DNA of 64,000 bases from Bacteroidia bacterium (GTDB lineage: Bacteria; Bacteroidota; Bacteroidia; B-17B0; Aurantibacillaceae): contig JAEUTO010000013.1 of assembly GCA_016787785.1 (NCBI GenBank), positions 1 through 64,000 of the forward strand. Reading direction: 5' to 3'. Below, piece by piece: positions 2,669 through 29,119 of the stretch; position 1 is the stretch's first letter, and the number at the start of each line of letters is the position of its first letter. A model generated the notes under the pieces. That model saw only the letters and a program-made list of their open reading frames with translations. It was not told the DNA's origin and ran no database searches. A program made the translations under genes and the position numbers.

Positions 2669-3424
2669 CTATTTATCAAGCCAGGCTTTAAACTCGCTCA
2701 CACGTTCCCGGCTTACAACCGAGTCTTCATCATTTAATGTGGATGAATTTATTTTTAGGCGGCTGTTAAAATAAGATCCAACTTTTTGAATACTGCTTAT
2801 ATTCACAATAACCTTACGGTTGATCCTAAAAAAAACTTCCGGCGATACCAATGTTTCAAGGTTATCCAGAGTATAATCGATCACAAAACGTTTTCCGTTC
2901 TCGGTAGCAATTAAAACCACACCGTCTTCAGAAATAAAATGCAAGATCTCTTCTGTTTTTATAGACGAAATAGAATCCCCAATTTTAACCATAAATCTGT
3001 TTTTAAATTGCTTATTTATGCTTTGGTAGGCGCTGGCAATATTCTCTAAAATAACAGCCTGATTTAAAGTGTTTAGTTTTTTGTATTTGTCTACTGCAGT
3101 TCGCAGGTCTTCTATGCCAATAGGCTTCAAAAGATAATCAACCGAATTTATCTTAAAGGCCTTTATTGCATATTCGTTATAAGCAGTGGTAAATATCACC
3201 GGTGTTTCTATAGAGATCTTCGAAAAAATATCGAAGCTTAAGCCATCCGCCAAATGAATATCAACAAATAGCAAATCGGCCTTTAGTCCTTTGCTAAACT
3301 CCTCTACACTTTTTTTAACTGAATCAAATTTGGCAATAATATCGATAGAACTATCCACTTTTTTTAAAAGTGTAGCCAAGTGCTCAGCCGATAATTTTTC
3401 ATCTTCTATTATTATTGCTTTCAT
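2669..3424 (-). CDS. LytTR-family response regulator
   Basis: A 251-residue protein with an N-terminal receiver domain: acidic pair E7/D8, phospho-acceptor D55 in LFVDIHLADG, T79/T80 in FTTAY and K100 in LLKPI. A C-terminal LytTR DNA-binding domain follows (about 140-250) with the typical RINRKVIVN and FNSRLKI strands. The start codon overlaps the stop of the upstream histidine kinase by 4 nt (ATGA), so the pair is translationally coupled and forms a LytS/AlgZ-type two-component system. Its targets are unknown. The downstream NADPH oxidoreductase and TonB receptor lie on the same strand, but there is no proof of regulation. Confidence 0.93.
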   Translation of the reverse strand: MKAIIIEDEKLSAEHLATLLKKVDSSIDIIAKFDSVKKSVEEFSKGLKADLLFVDIHLADGLSFDIFSKISIETPVIFTTAYNEYAIKAFKINSVDYLLKPIGIEDLRTAVDKYKKLNTLNQAVILENIASAYQSINKQFKNRFMVKIGDSISSIKTEEILHFISEDGVVLIATENGKRFVIDYTLDNLETLVSPEVFFRINRKVIVNISSIQKVGSYFNSRLKINSSTLNDEDSVVSRERVSEFKAWLDK

Positions 3425-4440
3425 TTAGATATTAATAATGGAATTTTTACGGTAAATAATTTATCGGTAGAAATAACTTCCACATTTTTTTCGGTAAAAA
3501 ATTTGTAACGATCTTTTATATTCTGCAATCCTGTTTTGGAACTGGGTTCTGTGGTAGTTCTTAATTGCAGGTTGTTAGTGATCTCAAGCATGTCGCCAGA
3601 GGTCTTAATATGCACATTTAATGGCGACTCATTTGAGATCTCGTTGTGTTTGATAACATTCTCAATTAGCATTTGCAGAGATAGCGGCGGCAACATTAAA
3701 TGTGTTTTTTCTTTGGGAACATCGATATTAAAAATAATATTTTTATCGAAGCGTATCTTTATCAAATAGGTATATGACTGAATAAAGGTCAATTCAGTCT
3801 CCAGGGCAACCAGTTCATTATCTCTATTATCAAGTAAATAACGATACACTTTTGAAAGTTGATTAATAAAATCTACGGCCTTATCTTGGTCTATATAAAC
3901 CAAAGACGATAACACGCTTAAATTATTAAATAAAAAATGAGGATTCAATTGATTCTTTAAATTTTGTAATTGCGCCTGAAGGTTTTCGGCTTTATATTTT
4001 TCGATTTCTATTAAAGAACGTTTCCAGTTACCGAAAAACTGCGCTCCGATTTCAATTGTTAAAATAATGATTGAAACAAGTACTCCGAGAATGATGGCAG
4101 TTAACATAAACGCATCTTTTGTTGCAGGAGGCATTGGACAAACATATTTATTAAACGCTAGCATTGATAAATAAATTACAAAGGCGCTAAAAATTATACC
4201 AGAAGGTAAATGAACAAGAATACGCTTACCAGGACTTTTTTCCCAAGGAAATTTTTGATTTAACCATGTATCTATCCTTAAATTACCTTCCCAAACAAGA
4301 ATGGTAATGGCGATAGAAATAAAGAAATCAAAAAATTGGTTATGCACTTGTTGTACACCAACCATGATCGTGTCAAGCAGTTTGGAAATAATTATTCCAA
4401 CTACTATCATATAAACAAAACGTATTTTGTTTTTTCTCAT
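3421..4440 (-). CDS. LytS/YehU-type sensor histidine kinase
   Basis: A 339-residue membrane kinase. The N-terminal 140 residues contain four hydrophobic segments (about 7-27, 37-55, 75-97, 112-135) with no recognisable extracellular domain. A short coiled coil then leads into the His_kinase motif NQLNPHFLFNNLS with H168 as phospho-acceptor. The C-terminal ATPase has the N box as IENVIKHNE and the G box as GLQNIKDRY. This class (PF06580) phosphorylates LytTR regulators; the partner overlaps it by 4 nt. The ligand is unknown. The absence of a sensory loop suggests sensing within the membrane or through an accessory protein. Confidence 0.93.
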   Translation of the reverse strand: MRKNKIRFVYMIVVGIIISKLLDTIMVGVQQVHNQFFDFFISIAITILVWEGNLRIDTWLNQKFPWEKSPGKRILVHLPSGIIFSAFVIYLSMLAFNKYVCPMPPATKDAFMLTAIILGVLVSIIILTIEIGAQFFGNWKRSLIEIEKYKAENLQAQLQNLKNQLNPHFLFNNLSVLSSLVYIDQDKAVDFINQLSKVYRYLLDNRDNELVALETELTFIQSYTYLIKIRFDKNIIFNIDVPKEKTHLMLPPLSLQMLIENVIKHNEISNESPLNVHIKTSGDMLEITNNLQLRTTTEPSSKTGLQNIKDRYKFFTEKNVEVISTDKLFTVKIPLLISK

Positions 4441-7796: not shown

Positions 7797-8174
7797 ATGG
7801 AAAATTTAATTATTGCATCAACATTAAAATCTCCCGGGGTAACTTTTAATACCAACGGCGATCTTTTAATTGCAGGCAAATCAATTCCTGAAGATTCAAA
7901 CAATTATTATAAACCTCTTTTTGCATGGTTGGAAGAATTTAAAAAAACATCGCCACCAGCAGTAAATCTTACACTTAAGTTAGAGTATATGAATACATCA
8001 AGTGTTCGTATCATCTTAAAGTTTTTACAAAACCTGGTGGCAATGTCAAAAGAAAATGTTAAACTAAAAATTACATGGGTTTACGATTTTGATGATGATG
8101 ATATTTGCGAACAGGGAGAAATTATCCAGGAAAGCATTAAATTCCCTATCGAAATGGTAGAACACAGAGCTTAA
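7797..8174 (+). CDS. SiaC family (DUF1987) regulatory phosphoprotein
   Basis: A 125-residue cytosolic protein matching the SiaC/DUF1987 pattern along its whole length: an FNTNGDLLIAGKSIPED strand region, FAWLEEF, LEYMNTSSVR, and a C-terminal ITWVYDFDDDDICEQGE segment. In Pseudomonas SiaC the threonine of the NTSS motif (Thr68) is phosphorylated by SiaB and dephosphorylated by the PP2C phosphatase SiaA, controlling the cyclase SiaD. Here the equivalent residue is T67. The next gene, 49 nt downstream, is a SpoIIE-type PP2C phosphatase, exactly the expected partner class. No SiaB-like kinase or GGDEF protein is in this window, so the downstream target must differ or lie elsewhere. Confidence 0.88.
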   Translation: MENLIIASTLKSPGVTFNTNGDLLIAGKSIPEDSNNYYKPLFAWLEEFKKTSPPAVNLTLKLEYMNTSSVRIILKFLQNLVAMSKENVKLKITWVYDFDDDDICEQGEIIQESIKFPIEMVEHRA

Positions 8175-8223
8175 AAATTCAATTACCTGCCTTGGCCGTT
8201 AATTGAGTATTAAAATAATTTAT

Positions 8224-10383
8224 ATGAAATTAGTTTTATCACTCTTAATGGTTTGTTCTATAGCCCTGGCGCAGGTTGATCAGAAAGAGGTCGACTCATT
8301 AACTAAGATCGTCAACAGCAAGGCTTCCGATAGTATCCGAATCACAGCGCTCTCAGACCTTAACTGGATCTTCGCTGTTTCAAATCCAAAAAGATCTAAA
8401 GAATACGCGTTAAAAGAAATTCAACTTTCCGCAAACGCATCGCCTTTATTGAAGGCACAAGCATTTAATGATCTGGCTATTTCATTCTACAAATTAACCA
8501 TTCTCGATTCTGCCTTATTTTATAATAAAAAGGCCTATGAGATTAGGAGATCTACAGGGCGTAAAGATCTCATGGCTTCATCACTGAGTAAGATAGCTGT
8601 TGTGTACACCGATCAGGGAAATTATCAGCAGGCTCTAATAGCGAACCTTGAAGCCTTAAACATTTACGAGCAAAAAAAAGATGAGCGAAAATTATCACTC
8701 ATTTATAATAATGTTGGGCAACTTTACGAAAAATTAAATCGCAAAGACAAACTTGTTTATTATGTTGAAAAATCGCTGGAACTTTGCAAAAAGCTGGGAG
8801 ATGAATATGGCGAGGCGAATTGCTGCGCCAACCTGGCCGAATCCTATTTAAGGAAAGGTAAAACACAGGCGGCCTTTCAACTAATGGATAGAGTGGTTGA
8901 TGTTTATATAAAACATGGCGACTCTTTAAGTTTATCTACCGCTTACAATAATCTTGGTTATTTGAACCGACTTATTGGAAATAAAAAAGAAGCAAAGGCG
9001 TATTATTTAAAGGCTATTGTAATTTGCAAAAGAATAAATAATTTACAAAGTCTATTATTGTACACACATAATTTAAGCTCGATCTACTGCACAGAAAAAA
9101 ATTACCTCGCAGCAGAACGCGCCAGTAAAGAAGTATTGGCTTTAACTACACCTGATAACGTAGCGCAGTTATTATTAACCTATCGCTTACTCGCAACCAT
9201 TTCTCCATATTTGAACAAACCCGCTGATGCCGAAAAATACCTTGACAGGTATACAGAATTGAAAGATTCTATTTTCTCAAAAGAAAATGCTAACTCAATG
9301 GCGCGCCTACAAACATTATTTGAAACAGAAAAACAAGATCTTACCATTCAAAATCTCGAAAAAGACAAAACCTTACAGGCAACACAAATAAAAAAAAGAA
9401 ATACCACCATACTTGCTGTTACAATTGGTTTGGGCCTTTCAATATTATTGATGTTTGCCGTATTTAGAAGCTATCGTTTAAAGCAAAAGGCTAACGCCAT
9501 TATTACCGAACAAAAAGAGAAAGTTGAATCGCAACGTGACGAATTAAAACACAAGAACGAATTAATTGAAGAAAAGAGCAAAGAAATTACCGATAGTATT
9601 AATTACGCCAAACGCATACAAGATGCTATTTTACCATCTGTAACCGATATTAAAAAGCACCTGCCCGATAATTTTGTATTTTACCAGCCAAAAGATATTG
9701 TGGCCGGCGACTTTTATTGGATGCACGTTTCCGACGAGCATATTTTTATTGCCGCAGCAGATTCAACTGGGCATGGCGTGCCCGGCGCAATGGTAAGCAT
9801 TGTTTGTAGTAACGCCTTAGATAAAGCAGTAAAAGATTTTGGCTTAACCAACCCGGGCCAGATACTTGATAAAACAACCGACCTGGTGATTGAGGCATTT
9901 GTAAAGAACGGACAGGTTACAACCGGAGAAATGGGTGAAGAAATAAAAGATGGAATGGATATTTCTTTACTAAGTATTGACAAAAAAAATAAAAAGGTGT
10001 TTTGGGCCGGTGCCAATAATCAGTTATGGTATGTTAGTCCGGAATTATTGATAGCGCCTTCACACGGCGTGTTTCGAGAAATAAACGAACTAAAAGCCGA
10101 TAAACAACCTATTGGCAAGAACGAGTACCGTAAGAACTTTGCAACGCACGAAATACCTTATGAAAAGGGTACCATTTTTTATTTAATGACGGATGGTTAC
10201 GCCGATCAGTTTGGGGGACCAAAAGGCAAAAAATTCAAATACAAACAACTCCAGGATCTTTTAGTAGCCAATTGCGCGCTTGACCTCAAAACACAAAAAG
10301 AAACGCTTATCGCTACGTTTAATGAATGGAAGGTGGGTCACGAACAGGTGGATGATGTTACCATTCTTGGCATCAAGATCTAA
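8224..10383 (+). CDS. TPR-containing transmembrane SpoIIE/PP2C serine phosphatase
   Basis: The ATG at 8224 is chosen over an upstream in-frame TTG because it gives a clean signal peptide (MKLVLSLLMVCSIALAQ). The periplasmic part (about 25-385) holds TPR repeats. One membrane helix follows near 393-413, then a coiled coil (about 420-470) and a cytosolic SpoIIE domain (about 480-719). Metal-binding motifs are intact: GDFYW, AADSTGHGVPGA, DGMDISLL, TDGYADQFGG and VDDVTILGI. It should dephosphorylate a Ser/Thr-phosphorylated protein in response to an envelope signal. The adjacent SiaC-like protein is the obvious substrate. Two more phosphatases of this class occur at 23-29 kb. Confidence 0.9.
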   Translation: MKLVLSLLMVCSIALAQVDQKEVDSLTKIVNSKASDSIRITALSDLNWIFAVSNPKRSKEYALKEIQLSANASPLLKAQAFNDLAISFYKLTILDSALFYNKKAYEIRRSTGRKDLMASSLSKIAVVYTDQGNYQQALIANLEALNIYEQKKDERKLSLIYNNVGQLYEKLNRKDKLVYYVEKSLELCKKLGDEYGEANCCANLAESYLRKGKTQAAFQLMDRVVDVYIKHGDSLSLSTAYNNLGYLNRLIGNKKEAKAYYLKAIVICKRINNLQSLLLYTHNLSSIYCTEKNYLAAERASKEVLALTTPDNVAQLLLTYRLLATISPYLNKPADAEKYLDRYTELKDSIFSKENANSMARLQTLFETEKQDLTIQNLEKDKTLQATQIKKRNTTILAVTIGLGLSILLMFAVFRSYRLKQKANAIITEQKEKVESQRDELKHKNELIEEKSKEITDSINYAKRIQDAILPSVTDIKKHLPDNFVFYQPKDIVAGDFYWMHVSDEHIFIAAADSTGHGVPGAMVSIVCSNALDKAVKDFGLTNPGQILDKTTDLVIEAFVKNGQVTTGEMGEEIKDGMDISLLSIDKKNKKVFWAGANNQLWYVSPELLIAPSHGVFREINELKADKQPIGKNEYRKNFATHEIPYEKGTIFYLMTDGYADQFGGPKGKKFKYKQLQDLLVANCALDLKTQKETLIATFNEWKVGHEQVDDVTILGIKI

Positions 10384-23027: not shown

Positions 23028-25409
23028 TTAAATTCTAACCCCAATCACGCAAACGTCATCCACCTGCTCTAACCCACCTTTTACACTTCCCGGCCATGCC
23101 TTCCACGTTTCAAAAGCCTTCACCAATTTTTGTCTTTGTAATTCCATAGGCTCATTAACATTGGCCAAAATTGTATCGAGCAATTGTTTATACTTAAATT
23201 TTTTACCTCTTGGGCCACCAAACTGATCGGCATAACCATCGGTGAACATATAAATGCAATCGCCCTTTTGCAACTGTAAACTATCATTAACAAATATTTT
23301 TCCTTCACCCAAATAGCCACCAATACTTGCTTTTGTAGCTTTAAGTTCTGTTACAACATTATTCCTAATATGTATCAGAGGGCGATGTGCTCCTGCAAAA
23401 TTTAAGATCTTACTTTCTAAATGAATAGAGCATAAAGCTACATCCATGCCATCCTGTATGCTTTTATTCTCATCATTTTTTGTGAAGGAAGAAAAAATTG
23501 TTTTATCTAACTCAGTTAATACACGCGCCGGATCTGTAACATATTTTTCATTTACAATATGGTTCAAATGATCAACACCTATAACACTCATAAAGGCTCC
23601 CGGAACGCCATGACCGGTGCAATCCACCGCGGCTAACATTAATGTATCTTGTACTTTGGAGAACCAGTATAGATCGCCACTTACAATGTCTTTAGGTAAA
23701 TAATAAATAAAGTGTTCTGCAAAATATTTATTTAGTTGTCCCTCCGAAGGCAATATGGCATCCTGAATGCGTTTCGCATAACGAATACTGTCCATGATCT
23801 CTTTTCGCTGAAATGAGATCTCATCACGATTCACCTGTATCTCGTTATACGCCGATTGCAATTGCAAATTGGAGCGTTGTTTTAAACGGTAACGGTTAAA
23901 AATTAAAAATATGATCACAAATAAAACTAACAAGCCGCCCAATAACATGTTTTTTTGCAGACTGCTTACTTTTAATTGATTGCGTTGTAACTCCTGTTGC
24001 TGATTCAGTGTAGCAATCTCTGTCGCTTGTTTTTCGGTTTTATAAAGCGCTTCCATTTCAGCAATTTTTCCTGCGCTTTCTGTTTTAAAAATTGAATCTT
24101 TTAAATTAGAATAATCTACATAGTACTTGTTGGCCAGTTTATAATTCCCTGTTTGACTATTTAGGTCGGCTAAATTTTTTAATGCCCCTAACTCCGAACT
24201 TTTGAAATCTATTTTTCTTGAAAGCGCCAGCGCTTCTTCAAAGTTGGCAATGGCAAGTTGTGTTTTACCTGTTTCAGCATATATATCTCCTAACTGGCAT
24301 AGCCCATCGCAAACGCCTTCCTGTTCTTCAAGGTCCCTTTTAATTTTTAGCCCGGCTTCAACAGATTCTATTGCTTTTGCAATTTGTCCTTTGCGCAAAT
24401 ATATTTCCCCAACAGAGATCAAACAAAAGGCATAGTAATCCTGGTTATCCATTTCCAAAAAAACCGTCTTTGCCTGATTAAATTTTTCAAGGGCTTTATC
24501 GTATTGTTTATTTTTTAAGAGAATCGTACCAATACCATGCCTTACGTTTGCCAGGTAATCTTTATTGCCAATTGATTCAAGAATTTTTTCCGCTTCATAA
24601 AAATTAGTCAGGGCTTTATTTTCATTACGCATTGATTGATAAATAAGGCCCATATTTACAAGACAACCCGCGTAATCTTTTTGATGGCCCAGTTTTTCAA
24701 ATATTTTTTTTGCTGAAATAAACGCTGCAATACCATTCATATGATCGCTCATATTATGATAAGCACTTCCCAATGCGTTGTACTGCCTTGCCATTCCGGA
24801 TGAATCGTTTAGCTTACTATAGATCTCAAGTGCCTTTTGAAAATAATTTATTGATTCTTTAGTTTCACCCAAACTTTGATGAGCATACCCTACGTTATAA
24901 ATGTTACTGGCCTCTTCTTTTAAAATATTTCCTTCTTTTGCCTTTTTTGCAGCCTCTTCAAATAAAGGAATTGCTAACCTTATCTTGCCATTCAAAGCGT
25001 GGCAAAGAGCGTTTTTATACAACGCGGTTACCTGCCCTTGAAAATAACGGGCCGCTTTGTACATTGTCAATGCATTTTTGTAATTATCAACGGCACCATC
25101 GGGGTCGCCTTGTTTTTCTTTATAACTGCCTAAACCAAGATAATAATCACCAAGGTATTTTTTTTCACCGGAAGGTTTAGCCAAAGCATAGACTTTATTT
25201 AAATAGGTAATTGAAATCTTCGTTGTATCTCGCGCATGGATCGAAGCTAATTTTAAAAGCGTTTGAATTTGCGCGGTATCTTTTTGTGTTTTGAGTACAC
25301 TTAAAAGGCTATCTTCCTTTTTGTTTTGCGAATAGATCGTAGAGAAACTGCCATTTAAACAAAATAGCGTTAAAACATAAAAGAAAGGTTTTCTAAAGTG
25401 AGTTTGCAT
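23028..25409 (-). CDS. TPR-containing transmembrane SpoIIE/PP2C serine phosphatase
   Basis: The ATG at 25409 is preferred to an upstream TTG, which falls next to a -7 element. The protein then begins with MQTHFRKPFFYVLTLFCLNG, a signal anchor. About ten TPR repeats fill residues 40-460. A membrane helix lies near 486-506, a coiled coil follows, and a SpoIIE domain covers about 570-793. Catalytic motifs are intact: GDLYW, VDCTGHGVPGAFMS, DGMDVALC, TDGYADQFGG and VDDVCVIGV. It is a paralogue of the phosphatase at 8.2 kb and lies just downstream of a third one. The substrate is probably a Ser/Thr-phosphorylated regulator such as the SiaC-like protein. Confidence 0.9.
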   Translation of the reverse strand: MQTHFRKPFFYVLTLFCLNGSFSTIYSQNKKEDSLLSVLKTQKDTAQIQTLLKLASIHARDTTKISITYLNKVYALAKPSGEKKYLGDYYLGLGSYKEKQGDPDGAVDNYKNALTMYKAARYFQGQVTALYKNALCHALNGKIRLAIPLFEEAAKKAKEGNILKEEASNIYNVGYAHQSLGETKESINYFQKALEIYSKLNDSSGMARQYNALGSAYHNMSDHMNGIAAFISAKKIFEKLGHQKDYAGCLVNMGLIYQSMRNENKALTNFYEAEKILESIGNKDYLANVRHGIGTILLKNKQYDKALEKFNQAKTVFLEMDNQDYYAFCLISVGEIYLRKGQIAKAIESVEAGLKIKRDLEEQEGVCDGLCQLGDIYAETGKTQLAIANFEEALALSRKIDFKSSELGALKNLADLNSQTGNYKLANKYYVDYSNLKDSIFKTESAGKIAEMEALYKTEKQATEIATLNQQQELQRNQLKVSSLQKNMLLGGLLVLFVIIFLIFNRYRLKQRSNLQLQSAYNEIQVNRDEISFQRKEIMDSIRYAKRIQDAILPSEGQLNKYFAEHFIYYLPKDIVSGDLYWFSKVQDTLMLAAVDCTGHGVPGAFMSVIGVDHLNHIVNEKYVTDPARVLTELDKTIFSSFTKNDENKSIQDGMDVALCSIHLESKILNFAGAHRPLIHIRNNVVTELKATKASIGGYLGEGKIFVNDSLQLQKGDCIYMFTDGYADQFGGPRGKKFKYKQLLDTILANVNEPMELQRQKLVKAFETWKAWPGSVKGGLEQVDDVCVIGVRI

Positions 25410-25422
25410 ACGGTCTATATCA

Positions 25423-25430
25423 CAAAAATA
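25423..25430 (-). promoter_or_regulatory. Bacteroidota -7 element for the TPR-SpoIIE gene
   Basis: The minus strand reads TATTTTTG, a perfect match, 14 nt upstream of the chosen ATG. Its position rules against the upstream TTG start. It also suggests that the gene can be transcribed independently of the propeller phosphatase gene upstream. Confidence 0.5.
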
Positions 25431-25471
25431 CAATTAATCACTCAATTCGTTTCTCAATTTTTCGATTTACG

Positions 25472-28400
25472 CTAAATTCGAATGCCTATGATACACACAT
25501 CGTCAACCTGCTCAAGACTACCCTTCCATTCATTAAATGCCTTATCAAGTTTTTGTCTCTGCTCATTCATATTTTCATCTACATGAGCTATCAAAAAATC
25601 CTGCAGCGGTTTATATTTGAATTTCTTTCCCTTGTTTCCGCCAAATTGATCTGCAAAACCGTCTGTTAAAGCATAAATAACATCACCAGCTTTAAGATCG
25701 ATAGTGCGTTCGCTAAACGGTATGGTATCTTTTTCGTGTTTACCAACGGGCATCCTGTCTGATTTAAGATCCATCAATTCCGGTCCGTTTTCGCCATTCC
25801 TGATTATCCATACAGGATTGTTGGCAGAAGCATATGTTAGTTTTTTATTTTTAAAATCAAAAATGATAAGGCTGCAATCCATTCCATCTTTTCCACCTTC
25901 TAAACTACCATCCTGCGCTAGAGATTGGATAATGCGTTGACGCGCATGATTTAATATCTCCGCCGGACTGGTTAATTTACGTTCGTTGATCGCTTCATTG
26001 ATACATGAGATGTTTAACATACTCATCATGGCTCCCGGTACACCATGGCCAGTGCTATCTGCTGTTAACAAAGCAAAATTACCATTAACCAAAGGCGAAG
26101 CCCAGTAAAAATCGCCACTTACAATGTCTTTTGGCTTAAAGAATAAAAAATAATTCTTTAAATTGGTATTTAATAATTGATCGCTTGCCAATAAAGCTTT
26201 TTGAATACGTTGAGCGTAATTGATGCTATCAACTATTTCCTTTTGTTTTTCTTCTATTAATTCTTTTTGTTCTACAACCTCAGCAGTTCTTTCTGCTACG
26301 ATCTTTTCTAATTGTTTTTGCTGCGCCCTTAATTGTGCCGTACGCCAGTTAATAACAGCATAGATCAAACTAATTGCTGCTATTACATATAAAAAATATG
26401 CTGCCCAGGTTTTCCACCATGGTGGATCGATCACAAATTTATACTCCAGTACATTGCTCCATTTTTGCGACAAACCAATTGCTTTTACTTTAAAAATATA
26501 GTCGCCACAAGGTAGATTACTGTATAAGGCTTTGTTATCGGGTGAGGTAGGACTCCAGTCTTTATCAACCCCTTCTAATAAATACTGATATTGAATTTTA
26601 TCAGGCGCCGACCAGTCAATTCCGCTAAAGTGAAATGTAATGTGATTGATATTATACGGAAGCTCTAAATTTTTTGGATAGTTATAAAAATCTGCAAGGC
26701 CATCAAATTTTACTTTTGCCAAACTTTTCTTTGTTTCAGTACCAACTATCATCGGGCGACCGGATTTTAATGAATCCTGCAGCGCATAAAAGTCAACGAA
26801 AGTTTGCTCGAGTTCAATACTGTTTAGTTGAATAGACGGAATATCTGCAGAGAGTTTGAATGTATTAAGGTCAAGCATTGTCAATGCTTTGCCATTACCC
26901 CACCAGGCATGTTTTTTACTATCAAGTAAAGCGGCGTTTTGGAAAAAATTATTTGCTTTTAAACCACTTGAAGTTGTATAAACCTGAATTTGATACCGGT
27001 GCGTTTCTATTGAATCTTTCGAGTCAGTATCAAGTGTTTTCTCTGTAGTTTTTACAATATAGTTAAGTCCGTTTTCGGTTGCAACCCACAAATTATTTTT
27101 ATCATCTTCAAGTATCGATGTAACAATATTGTTACTTAGGCCATCTTTTTCGGTGATCTTTGAGAAATTAACCTGACGCCCACACAGCGAATTCTTACTC
27201 GACCAGAATAATCCCTGCCCATCTGTACCAAACCAAATGTTTCCATCTTTATCTTCAAAAATTGCTTTAATGTAATCGTTGCCAAGACCTTGTTTTCTTG
27301 TGTAGTATTTAAAGAATTCGCCATCAAACTTACAAGCTCCGCCACCATCAGTTCCAAACCAAATATTACCGCAACCATCGGCACGCATGCACAGAACAGT
27401 ATTATTAGATAAACCTTCGTTTTCAGAAAATGTGGTAAAGAACTTGCCGTCAAAACGCGAAGCGCCGTTACCGTCAGATCCAAACCAGATATTTCCATTT
27501 GCATCTTCTAACAAAGACAAAATGTAATCGCTGCATAATCCTTCTTGCTCGGTATAATTCGAAAATGTTTTTCCGTCAAATTTTATCACACCTCCACCAT
27601 CTGTACCAAACCATAAATTCCCAGCCTTATCTGTTAAAATCGCTTTTACATAATTGCTGCTTAAACCTTCTTTTTCACTTAAGTGCGTAAAACTTTTTCC
27701 ATCATAACTTATTACACCATCGCCATAGGTACCAAACCAAATGGTGCCGTCTTTCGCTTCCAGTATGGATCGTACTGTGTTGCTACCTAAGCCTTCTTTA
27801 CCGGTATAGTGCGTAAATAATTTTCCATCGTAACGGTTGGCACCACCACCATATGTGCCCATCCACAAATTGCCGGCATTATCTTCCAGCATCGACTTAA
27901 CGTAATTATTACTTAAGCCTTCTCGCTCAGCAAAATAAGTAAATGTTTTTCCATCGTAACGATTTGCACCGCCACTATAGGTGCCAAACCAAATGGCACC
28001 CGACTTGTCCTGTAAAATAGATAATACAGAGTTGTTGCTTAAGCCCTGTGCTTCTTTATAATGTTTGAATGATTTACCGTCAAATAAATTAACGCCACCT
28101 TCATCAACGCCAAACCATAAATTTCCATCTTTATCTGAGAGCATCGAAAGAACGATATTATTACTTAGCCCCTCGTTTTCAGAAAAAGTAGTAAAAGACT
28201 TTCCGTCATAACGACTTAAGCCGCTTCCGTTTGTGCCAAACCAAATATTGCCATCCTTATCTTCTAAAACACCTCTAACAGAGTTATTGCATAAACCTTC
28301 TTTCTCGGTGTAATTCGTAAATGTCTTTCCGTCATAACTACAAGCACCACCACCATTAGTTCCAAACCAAACATTTCCCTTTTTATCCTGTATAATAGAA

Positions 28401-29119
28401 AGAACAGTGTTGCTACTAAAGCCTTCTTTTTCTGAAAAGCGCGTGAATTTTTTTCCGTCGTAACGGCAAACACCACCGCCTTCGGTACCAAACCACAAAT
28501 TACCATCTTTGTCTTGTAGCATTGCCAAAACAACGTTACTACTTAAACCTTCTTTTTCGGTATAGTGAACAAAAGAACGGCCATCGTACTTGCTTACACC
28601 TGCTTTAGTACCAAACCAAATGTTACCGCTTTTATCACTTAGAATACAGTTTACATAAGGCGAACTCATGCCCTGATCAACATCCAGGTATTGCAAATTA
28701 CAGATAGTTGCATCCTTAAACCTTGGCGGCACTGCAATTACAGGTAACGGTTGCTTGCAAAAAATATCTTTACCTATTGCCGATACTTTTTTTGGAAGAC
28801 CAAAAGTATCTGTGCCTGGGGTAATAATTGTAAGTCTATCAGGAATAGGAACAACATTTGGCTCGCCCACCAAATGCACATTGGTATTTGTTGGCAAAAC
28901 AAAAGGTGCTGCCATGTTTAAGATCTTTGGTGCACCTGCTGGTGTTGGTATAACTACCGCACGCCTTACCGTTACCAAATTATTTTTGGCTGTTTTTAGA
29001 GAATCTTCTTTTTTGCTTTTTTCTATTGAAGAATTTGCGGACTGTTTGTTGTTGTTATTGCAGGCACAAAAAATAATGCCCAGGAAAAAAATATAAAAAC
29101 TATTTTTTAAATAATACAT
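25472..29119 (-). CDS. Lipoprotein sensor: two-component-regulator propeller, Y_Y_Y domain, TM helix and SpoIIE/PP2C phosphatase
   Basis: A 1215-residue protein. The signal peptide ends in a lipobox (FCAC, C19). After a 100-residue linker come about 13 Reg_prop repeats of 42 residues (DKDGNIWFGT and YDGKSF), enough for two seven-blade propellers. A Y_Y_Y beta-sandwich follows (YLLEGVDKDWSPTS). A single membrane helix lies near 903-925 and a coiled coil after it. The C-terminal SpoIIE domain has intact motifs (GDFYW, ADSTGHGVPGA, TDGFADQFGG). In Bacteroidota this sensor layout is usually joined to a histidine kinase (hybrid two-component systems); here the output is a phosphatase. The periplasmic ligand, perhaps a glycan, is inferred. 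Confidence 0.9.
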   Translation of the reverse strand: MYYLKNSFYIFFLGIIFCACNNNNKQSANSSIEKSKKEDSLKTAKNNLVTVRRAVVIPTPAGAPKILNMAAPFVLPTNTNVHLVGEPNVVPIPDRLTIITPGTDTFGLPKKVSAIGKDIFCKQPLPVIAVPPRFKDATICNLQYLDVDQGMSSPYVNCILSDKSGNIWFGTKAGVSKYDGRSFVHYTEKEGLSSNVVLAMLQDKDGNLWFGTEGGGVCRYDGKKFTRFSEKEGFSSNTVLSIIQDKKGNVWFGTNGGGACSYDGKTFTNYTEKEGLCNNSVRGVLEDKDGNIWFGTNGSGLSRYDGKSFTTFSENEGLSNNIVLSMLSDKDGNLWFGVDEGGVNLFDGKSFKHYKEAQGLSNNSVLSILQDKSGAIWFGTYSGGANRYDGKTFTYFAEREGLSNNYVKSMLEDNAGNLWMGTYGGGANRYDGKLFTHYTGKEGLGSNTVRSILEAKDGTIWFGTYGDGVISYDGKSFTHLSEKEGLSSNYVKAILTDKAGNLWFGTDGGGVIKFDGKTFSNYTEQEGLCSDYILSLLEDANGNIWFGSDGNGASRFDGKFFTTFSENEGLSNNTVLCMRADGCGNIWFGTDGGGACKFDGEFFKYYTRKQGLGNDYIKAIFEDKDGNIWFGTDGQGLFWSSKNSLCGRQVNFSKITEKDGLSNNIVTSILEDDKNNLWVATENGLNYIVKTTEKTLDTDSKDSIETHRYQIQVYTTSSGLKANNFFQNAALLDSKKHAWWGNGKALTMLDLNTFKLSADIPSIQLNSIELEQTFVDFYALQDSLKSGRPMIVGTETKKSLAKVKFDGLADFYNYPKNLELPYNINHITFHFSGIDWSAPDKIQYQYLLEGVDKDWSPTSPDNKALYSNLPCGDYIFKVKAIGLSQKWSNVLEYKFVIDPPWWKTWAAYFLYVIAAISLIYAVINWRTAQLRAQQKQLEKIVAERTAEVVEQKELIEEKQKEIVDSINYAQRIQKALLASDQLLNTNLKNYFLFFKPKDIVSGDFYWASPLVNGNFALLTADSTGHGVPGAMMSMLNISCINEAINERKLTSPAEILNHARQRIIQSLAQDGSLEGGKDGMDCSLIIFDFKNKKLTYASANNPVWIIRNGENGPELMDLKSDRMPVGKHEKDTIPFSERTIDLKAGDVIYALTDGFADQFGGNKGKKFKYKPLQDFLIAHVDENMNEQRQKLDKAFNEWKGSLEQVDDVCIIGIRI
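27065..28680 (-). repeat. Tandem 126-bp coding repeats (Reg_prop blades)
   Basis: About 13 copies of a 42-codon unit encode the D-x-x-G-N-(I/L)-W-F-G-T blade pattern. DNA copies are similar but diverged. This explains the repetitive appearance and is not a CRISPR or mobile repeat. Confidence 0.9.

Follow-up and report, generated by a model that had tools for sequence, protein, structure and literature searches.

A predicted SiaA–SiaC phosphatase/substrate pair with its kinase in trans in a Bacteroidota genome without GGDEF matches

Two adjacent genes in a 64,000-nt stretch of a Bacteroidia genome (contig JAEUTO010000013.1, positions 1 to 64,000; the window) probably encode a SiaA–SiaC phosphatase/substrate pair, with the kinase supplied in trans, within a SiaABC partner-switching network free of c-di-GMP. 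We give this reading a probability of about 0.7. In the SiaABCD system of Pseudomonas aeruginosa, SiaA is a PP2C phosphatase, SiaB a kinase, SiaC a phosphoprotein and SiaD a diguanylate cyclase. In the portions of the two papers drawn on here, SiaB phosphorylates and SiaA dephosphorylates T68 of SiaC (PMC7647112), and phosphorylation of T68 blocks the binding of SiaC to SiaD (PMC8457831). The features of the pair are the following.

7797..8174, + strand: SiaC-family phosphoprotein, 125 aa (Pfam PF09345, PDB and fold matches)
7995..7997, + strand: codon of T67 of SiaC, aligned with the phospho-acceptor T68 of P. aeruginosa SiaC
8224..10383, + strand: predicted SiaA-type phosphatase, 719 aa (Pfam TPR and SpoIIE, PDB 6k4e)
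8224..8280, + strand: signal peptide-like N terminus, residues 1–19 of the phosphatase (hydropathy)
9400..9474, + strand: predicted transmembrane helix, residues 393–417 of the phosphatase (hydropathy; basic flank RLKQK on the PP2C side)
9733..10380, + strand: SpoIIE/PP2C domain, residues 511–725 in 726-aa numbering (Pfam, PDB alignment, motifs)

To judge by the predicted topology, the TPR domain of the phosphatase would lie outside the inner membrane and sense a signal. The cytosolic PP2C domain would remove the phosphate from T67 of SiaC, as the similarity to SiaA and the fusion proteins described below suggest, and a SiaB-type kinase encoded elsewhere (at C4, C1, C13 or C14) would put it back. 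By analogy with SiaC–SiaD, unphosphorylated SiaC may then use the surface where helix 67–84 begins to bind a partner. Numerous further SiaA-type phosphatases encoded in this genome probably converge on this small set of eight SiaC proteins too.

The SiaC protein and its phosphatase

The first-pass annotation had named a SiaC/DUF1987 protein with an NTSS site at T67, and family, structure and residue comparisons agree on it. The protein matched Pfam SiaC with an E-value of 9e-30 and 103.2 bits (gathering cut-off 24.5) and aligned over nearly its full length with P. aeruginosa SiaC in PDB 6kko/6k4f (E 2e-10). It scored 80.7 bits against the NCBIfam SiaC equivalog NF038265, short of the cut-off of 150, and a GGDEF-linked SiaC of another family (L263, see below) is likewise below that cut-off at 118.8. 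The AF2 model (mean pLDDT 86.6) retrieved eight PDB chains at E ≤ 0.001, all of them P. aeruginosa SiaC, with TM-scores of 0.81–0.86 (0.85 for 6kko_D). Residue 67 is a threonine, as suits a T/S acceptor, in the context YMNTSSVRI, and forms the first residue of helix 67–84 (α2) in the model; among 109 aligned SiaC rows this site is T in 89, S in 20 and never another residue.

The neighbouring protein is predicted to be a SiaA-type membrane TPR–SpoIIE phosphatase, an assignment supported by several comparisons. Its mechanical open reading frame runs from a TTG at 8203 to 10383 (726-aa numbering) and a start at this TTG is possible; the ATG at 8224 is the start common to the orthologs, so that the gap after the SiaC stop is 49 nt. 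Only one transmembrane helix was found, with the TPRs N-terminal of it and the SpoIIE domain after it. The best PDB match, 6k4e, spans the coiled coil and the PP2C domain (E 2.6e-37), and no other phosphatase appeared in that search at E ≤ 1e-3. Its depositors named 6k4e a 'putative serine phosphatase'; we take it to be the phosphatase domain of SiaA (SiaA-PP2C). The NCBIfam SiaA equivalog NF038263 aligned with residues 422–718 only (E 9e-54), at 183 bits against a cut-off of 700. The PP2C metal-site residues of SiaA are, in the section of PMC7647112 used here, D457, D474, G477, D600, G601 and D653. The metal-site motifs of SiaA, matched by eye on the 6k4e alignment, are kept in the window phosphatase, which carries GDFYW (beginning just before 9733, at residue 495 of 719), DSTGHG, TDGYADQ and QVDDVT. 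The earlier description of a transmembrane PP2C phosphatase 49 nt after SiaC thus holds in terms of start codon, helix, SpoIIE domain and 6k4e match.

The two genes are adjacent in seven of eight orthologous loci, the window included, with a gap of 49–52 nt wherever the pair occurs and SiaC orthologs 84–99% identical to the window protein. The genes beyond the pair vary: four of the seven loci that have it lack a VWA gene, and VWA, DUF2911 and AKR are all gone from one genome (G034), which retains the pair. Both genes are under strong purifying selection, with dN/dS of 0.035–0.10 for SiaC (against seven orthologs) and 0.041–0.066 for the phosphatase (four of six ortholog pairs, dS being saturated in two). 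If the pair were what is left of a decaying SiaABCD operon after loss of the kinase and cyclase genes, the absence of SiaB and SiaD beside it would be expected, but the complete motifs of both proteins and these dN/dS values already largely refute this reading, and we hold it to be extremely improbable. The pairing of SiaC with a membrane TPR–SpoIIE phosphatase in a Bacteroidota form, which the first-pass annotation had proposed, is supported by the 6k4e match and by the seven loci.

It is also conceivable that the two are neighbours only, the phosphatase serving another SiaC or another substrate, with different phosphatases of the genome controlling the window SiaC. Adjacency is no proof of specificity because the genome holds 64 SpoIIE domains for eight SiaC genes; in addition, one ortholog (in G025) has no phosphatase beside it, and the window phosphatase belongs to a well supported 14-row clade whose other 13 members are not next to SiaC. 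Yet the pair, with its narrow range of gaps, persists while VWA, DUF2911 and AKR come and go, and SpoIIE near SiaC exceeds uniform chance: a SpoIIE midpoint lies no more than 3 kb from five of the eight SiaC genes (random mean 0.59), a number reached in 4 of 20,000 uniform random placements, which ignore gene clustering. We therefore regard mere neighbourhood as unlikely. Whether SiaC-adjacent phosphatases form one dedicated clade was considered separately and rejected, since the label 'next to SiaC' changes eight times on the phosphatase tree, at least six of these changes being forced by well supported branches (bootstrap not settled).

Two further gene groups of the window may be recorded. 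A His_kinase-family gene (PF06580) at 2669-4440 on the minus strand overlaps its neighbour, presumably a response regulator, by 4 nt, and both are present in four of the seven other ortholog loci. Tandem SpoIIE phosphatase genes of 801 and 1215 aa lie on the minus strand at 23028-25433 and 25472-29119, with no SiaC adjoining.

SiaB kinases and SiaC lineages beyond the pair

One search of the genome each for SiaC, DUF6272 (SiaB), SpoIIE and GGDEF gave eight SiaC, 64 SpoIIE domains and five DUF6272 domains at four loci (C4, C1, C13 and C14). DUF6272 was absent from the window's contig, so that SiaB does not share an operon with the pair as it does in SiaABCD. E67, N71 and GLG are kept in the four aligned SiaB copies. 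The NCBIfam SiaB family NF038262 (cut-off 85) was reached at three of the four loci (C4 170.7, C1 219.7, C14 107.7), C13 falling short at 71.2 bits, and the C4 protein matched 6kko_A, a chain of the SiaB–SiaC complex by its PDB title, with an E-value of 2.9e-17. The first-pass annotation had advised looking for DUF6272 elsewhere in the genome, and that search was positive at these four loci. Its 'unknown kinase' was accordingly dropped; the kinase need not be so described in a genome with four SiaB loci, three of them above the family cut-off. Its phrase 'without SiaB or SiaD' is true locally for SiaB and genome-wide for GGDEF but passes over the SiaB loci on other contigs, and the stand-alone two-gene form that it implied gives way to a pair that belongs to a far more extensive SiaABC network.

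The SiaA-type motif set in its GHG form was found, with loose patterns, in 63 of the 64 SpoIIE proteins. The genome's single GKG-type SpoIIE domain, searched as the domain alone (189 aa), retrieved Rv1364c and a response regulator in place of 6k4e. For a phosphatase of L052, which is not next to SiaC, 6k4e was again the best match (E 1.7e-30). That locus (L052, G000:C6:275000-294900) packs seven SpoIIE domains, six of which share a strand, into ~13 kb. STAS, searched at E ≤ 0.01, gave two matches in the genome, one of them in a 548-aa frame.

For a wider view, 101 distinct SiaC genes were sampled from 84 loci of the window's family, 60 of which were chosen chiefly for their resemblance to the window SiaC; no SiaC came from L228 or from the SiaB locus L051, and near-copies are included, so that the shares are not family-wide rates. 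SiaB lies in the same gene run as 41 of these genes, only SpoIIE with 21 and neither with 39; the C6 and C2 paralogs of the window's genome likewise have neither SpoIIE nor SiaB beside them. The window SiaC falls in a 31-row group (moderate support, 92/80) without any SiaB-linked row, so another kinase could serve it; the next well supported set around it holds 46 rows, eight of them SiaB-linked. SiaB-less SiaC genes seem to form a lineage and not to be broken operons, and their products look like live kinase substrates because T or S stands at site 67 in all 109 rows.

Next to this lineage stands a core SiaC copy. SiaB lies just upstream of it in every one of the 75 loci whose flank is long enough, and it is accompanied by a lipoprotein gene in 53 of 70 loci and by SpoIIE in 45 of 58; in the window's genome the core phosphatase carries a Reg_prop/Y_Y_Y sensor. 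For the lipoprotein-like gene of this SpoIIE–lipoprotein–SiaB–SiaC operon (L044:9311-10186), homologs were found in 57 of the 80 named loci. It matched no Pfam or NCBIfam family, and its beta-rich AF2 model (pLDDT 87.5) found no PDB structure at E ≤ 0.001. Two genes that follow core SiaC were dropped as its output since they do so in part of the loci only: a DeoC/LacD-family aldolase in 38 of 73 (181 nt away in the window's genome) and a gene that we take to be accD-like in 35 of 64.

Phosphatase and kinase also occur in one chain. L229 encodes TPR–SpoIIE–DUF6272 as a single 1064-aa protein flanked by SiaC genes, its SiaB part above the Pfam cut-off and below that of the NCBIfam SiaB family (69.9 vs 85); L231 holds part of a second such fusion, and in two loci of other families (L272, L274) REC–SpoIIE–DUF6272 stands directly upstream of SiaC. 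These fusions support the view that TPR–SpoIIE phosphatases act on the substrate of SiaB.

Absence of GGDEF matches and candidate outputs

No Pfam GGDEF match was found in the window's genome; the same search was positive in 8 of 14 control genomes. Within the 87 genomes of the family, SiaC occurs in 85, SiaB in 85 and SpoIIE in 87, and GGDEF in one, where the match is doubtful (E 1.3e-7, stop codon inside). This sole match, at G071:C32:734-1084 with an internal TAA, could stem from contamination or be a remnant. All 62 good genomes have both SiaC and SiaB and one has GGDEF, a distribution suggestive of a different role for the switch in this family. These genomes carry 1–13 SiaC (median 4), 1–9 SiaB (median 4) and 4–95 SpoIIE candidates (median 32), the SpoIIE numbers outside the window's genome being first-look candidates, scored up to a ceiling of about 32; with kinship ignored, the rank correlation is 0.86 for SiaC with SiaB and 0.53 for SiaC with SpoIIE. 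As far as the Pfam GGDEF model shows, the output of the window pair is probably not c-di-GMP and, since no GGDEF domain was found, the partner of its SiaC is probably not a diguanylate cyclase. The earlier statement that the output need not be c-di-GMP fits these counts.

Across the phylum SiaC has a scattered distribution (19 of 296 genomes, that of the window counted), and 14 of the 18 other SiaC genomes have some GGDEF, several only one weak match. Loci were fetched for 17 of these 18, G333 being left out, and one locus (L276) gave no SiaC. The order SpoIIE–SiaB–SiaC–GGDEF, which corresponds to SiaABCD and serves as a positive control, was seen in 3 of the 17 (L263–L265, family f29), and two more loci of f29 (L266, L267) have SiaB–SiaC without GGDEF beside it. 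In three loci of another family, f9 (L269, L270, L279), the place of siaD is taken by an ABC-2 transporter of ~1020 aa with a TerB-like N terminus, and no GGDEF match was found in the three SiaC genomes of f9. These transporters are 49–50% identical to one near the C1 SiaC of the window's genome; TerB rose above the Pfam cut-off in L269 only, of four transporters scanned. The slot of SiaD thus appears exchangeable, holding GGDEF or a TerB–ABC-2 transporter according to the locus. Loss of the SiaD-contact residue R103 had been considered as a sign of a new partner and was rejected because the GGDEF-linked SiaC proteins of L263–L265 also lack it.

SiaC might then control the TerB-like ABC-2 transporter, directly or via shared paralogs, and the window SiaC feed the same output. 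The gene order speaks for such a link elsewhere: 9 of the 84 sampled family loci have the transporter gene behind siaC within one gene run, five times with a 4-nt overlap, it occupies the siaD place in the f9 loci just described, and the window's genome has one near its C1 SiaC–SiaB locus. No transporter gene lies near the window pair, however, most sampled SiaC genes have none downstream, and at C1 the transporter lies 4.8 kb past SiaB and is encoded on the opposite strand; for the window SiaC this output is quite improbable. A role as regulator of T9SS or of the envelope was considered from the C6 paralog, which lies tail to tail with a run containing porX. That gene order is kept in seven of seven loci of its clade, with porX in view in six, but SiaC and the porX run are on opposite strands, hence not an operon, and the observation concerns a paralog at 37% identity to the window gene; we consider this role very improbable.

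Several arrangements are noted as observations in their own right. SiaC paralogs without SiaB or SpoIIE lie tail to tail with a porX-containing run at L045:9874-10254, L196–L200 and L252; porX there is a receiver plus PglZ gene, and the run also holds a gene that is presumably TsaE-like. In six loci (L222, L227, L234, L240, L250, L253) SiaC is fused behind a domain of ~230–250 aa, and in five of them (all except L250) the fusion stands just before an ABC-2 transporter. A protein of ~1260 aa with three AAA domains, two genes after SiaC (L272:5687-9469), is another candidate output, and a similar-looking 1269-aa gene lies two genes after SiaC in a further family (L275:993-4802).

Gene neighbourhoods thus supply output candidates for SiaC that can be tested. 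A tentative proposal, to which we give a little less than even odds, sees SiaABC as a phospho-switch that can be transferred and whose output slot can be exchanged: a GGDEF cyclase fills it in some Bacteroidota and a TerB–ABC-2 transporter in others, and in the window's family, which shows no sign of c-di-GMP synthesis, the switch forms a many-to-few network of TPR–SpoIIE proteins on 1–13 SiaC. If the many-to-few network is real, tens of envelope TPR–SpoIIE sensors would act on one to 13 SiaC proteins, and SiaC is proposed as the substrate class of the many TPR–SpoIIE phosphatases of these genomes.

Comparison with known systems

In the parts of the literature consulted, the one role given to SiaC is activation of a single diguanylate cyclase, and the titles and opening lines of abstracts of open-licence articles held no SiaC work outside c-di-GMP control. 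Modulation of adjacent proteins may be common among DUF1987 proteins, according to a suggestion in PMC8457831. For Campylobacterota, PP2C/STAS-type pathways targeting a c-di-GMP enzyme or a chemoreceptor have been proposed, as have PP2C–kinase fusions, in the available part of PMC9239204; varied outputs and such fusions are therefore not new in general.

With SiaABCD of P. aeruginosa the system described here shares the SiaC fold, the NTSS acceptor site, SiaB-family kinases in the genome and, with SiaA, the coiled coil and the PP2C domain with its metal-site motifs. It differs in that the sensor part of the window phosphatase has TPRs, the kinase lies outside the operon, and the genome combines the lack of a GGDEF match with eight SiaC and 64 SpoIIE domains. 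The f29 operons belong to the same phylum, use the same three protein families and have a phosphatase with Reg_prop/Y_Y_Y as in the core operon of the window's genome, but keep a GGDEF gene in the place of siaD, which the window's family does not. The resemblance to the cyanobacterial slr1659 and slr1658 families of NCBIfam is weak, at 22.4 bits for the window SiaC (cut-off 100) and up to 35.8 for the SiaB copies (cut-off 200).

Gram-positive bacteria use RsbU/SpoIIE–SpoIIAA–SpoIIAB partner switching, in which a PP2C phosphatase and a GHKL-type kinase act on a STAS-like phosphoprotein. The logic of phosphatase, kinase and phosphoprotein is shared, whereas the substrate of the window pair is of the SiaC family, in a genome with the two STAS matches given above. 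The SiaABC partner switch here is thus a variant of a known switch, found in a strikingly expanded setting.
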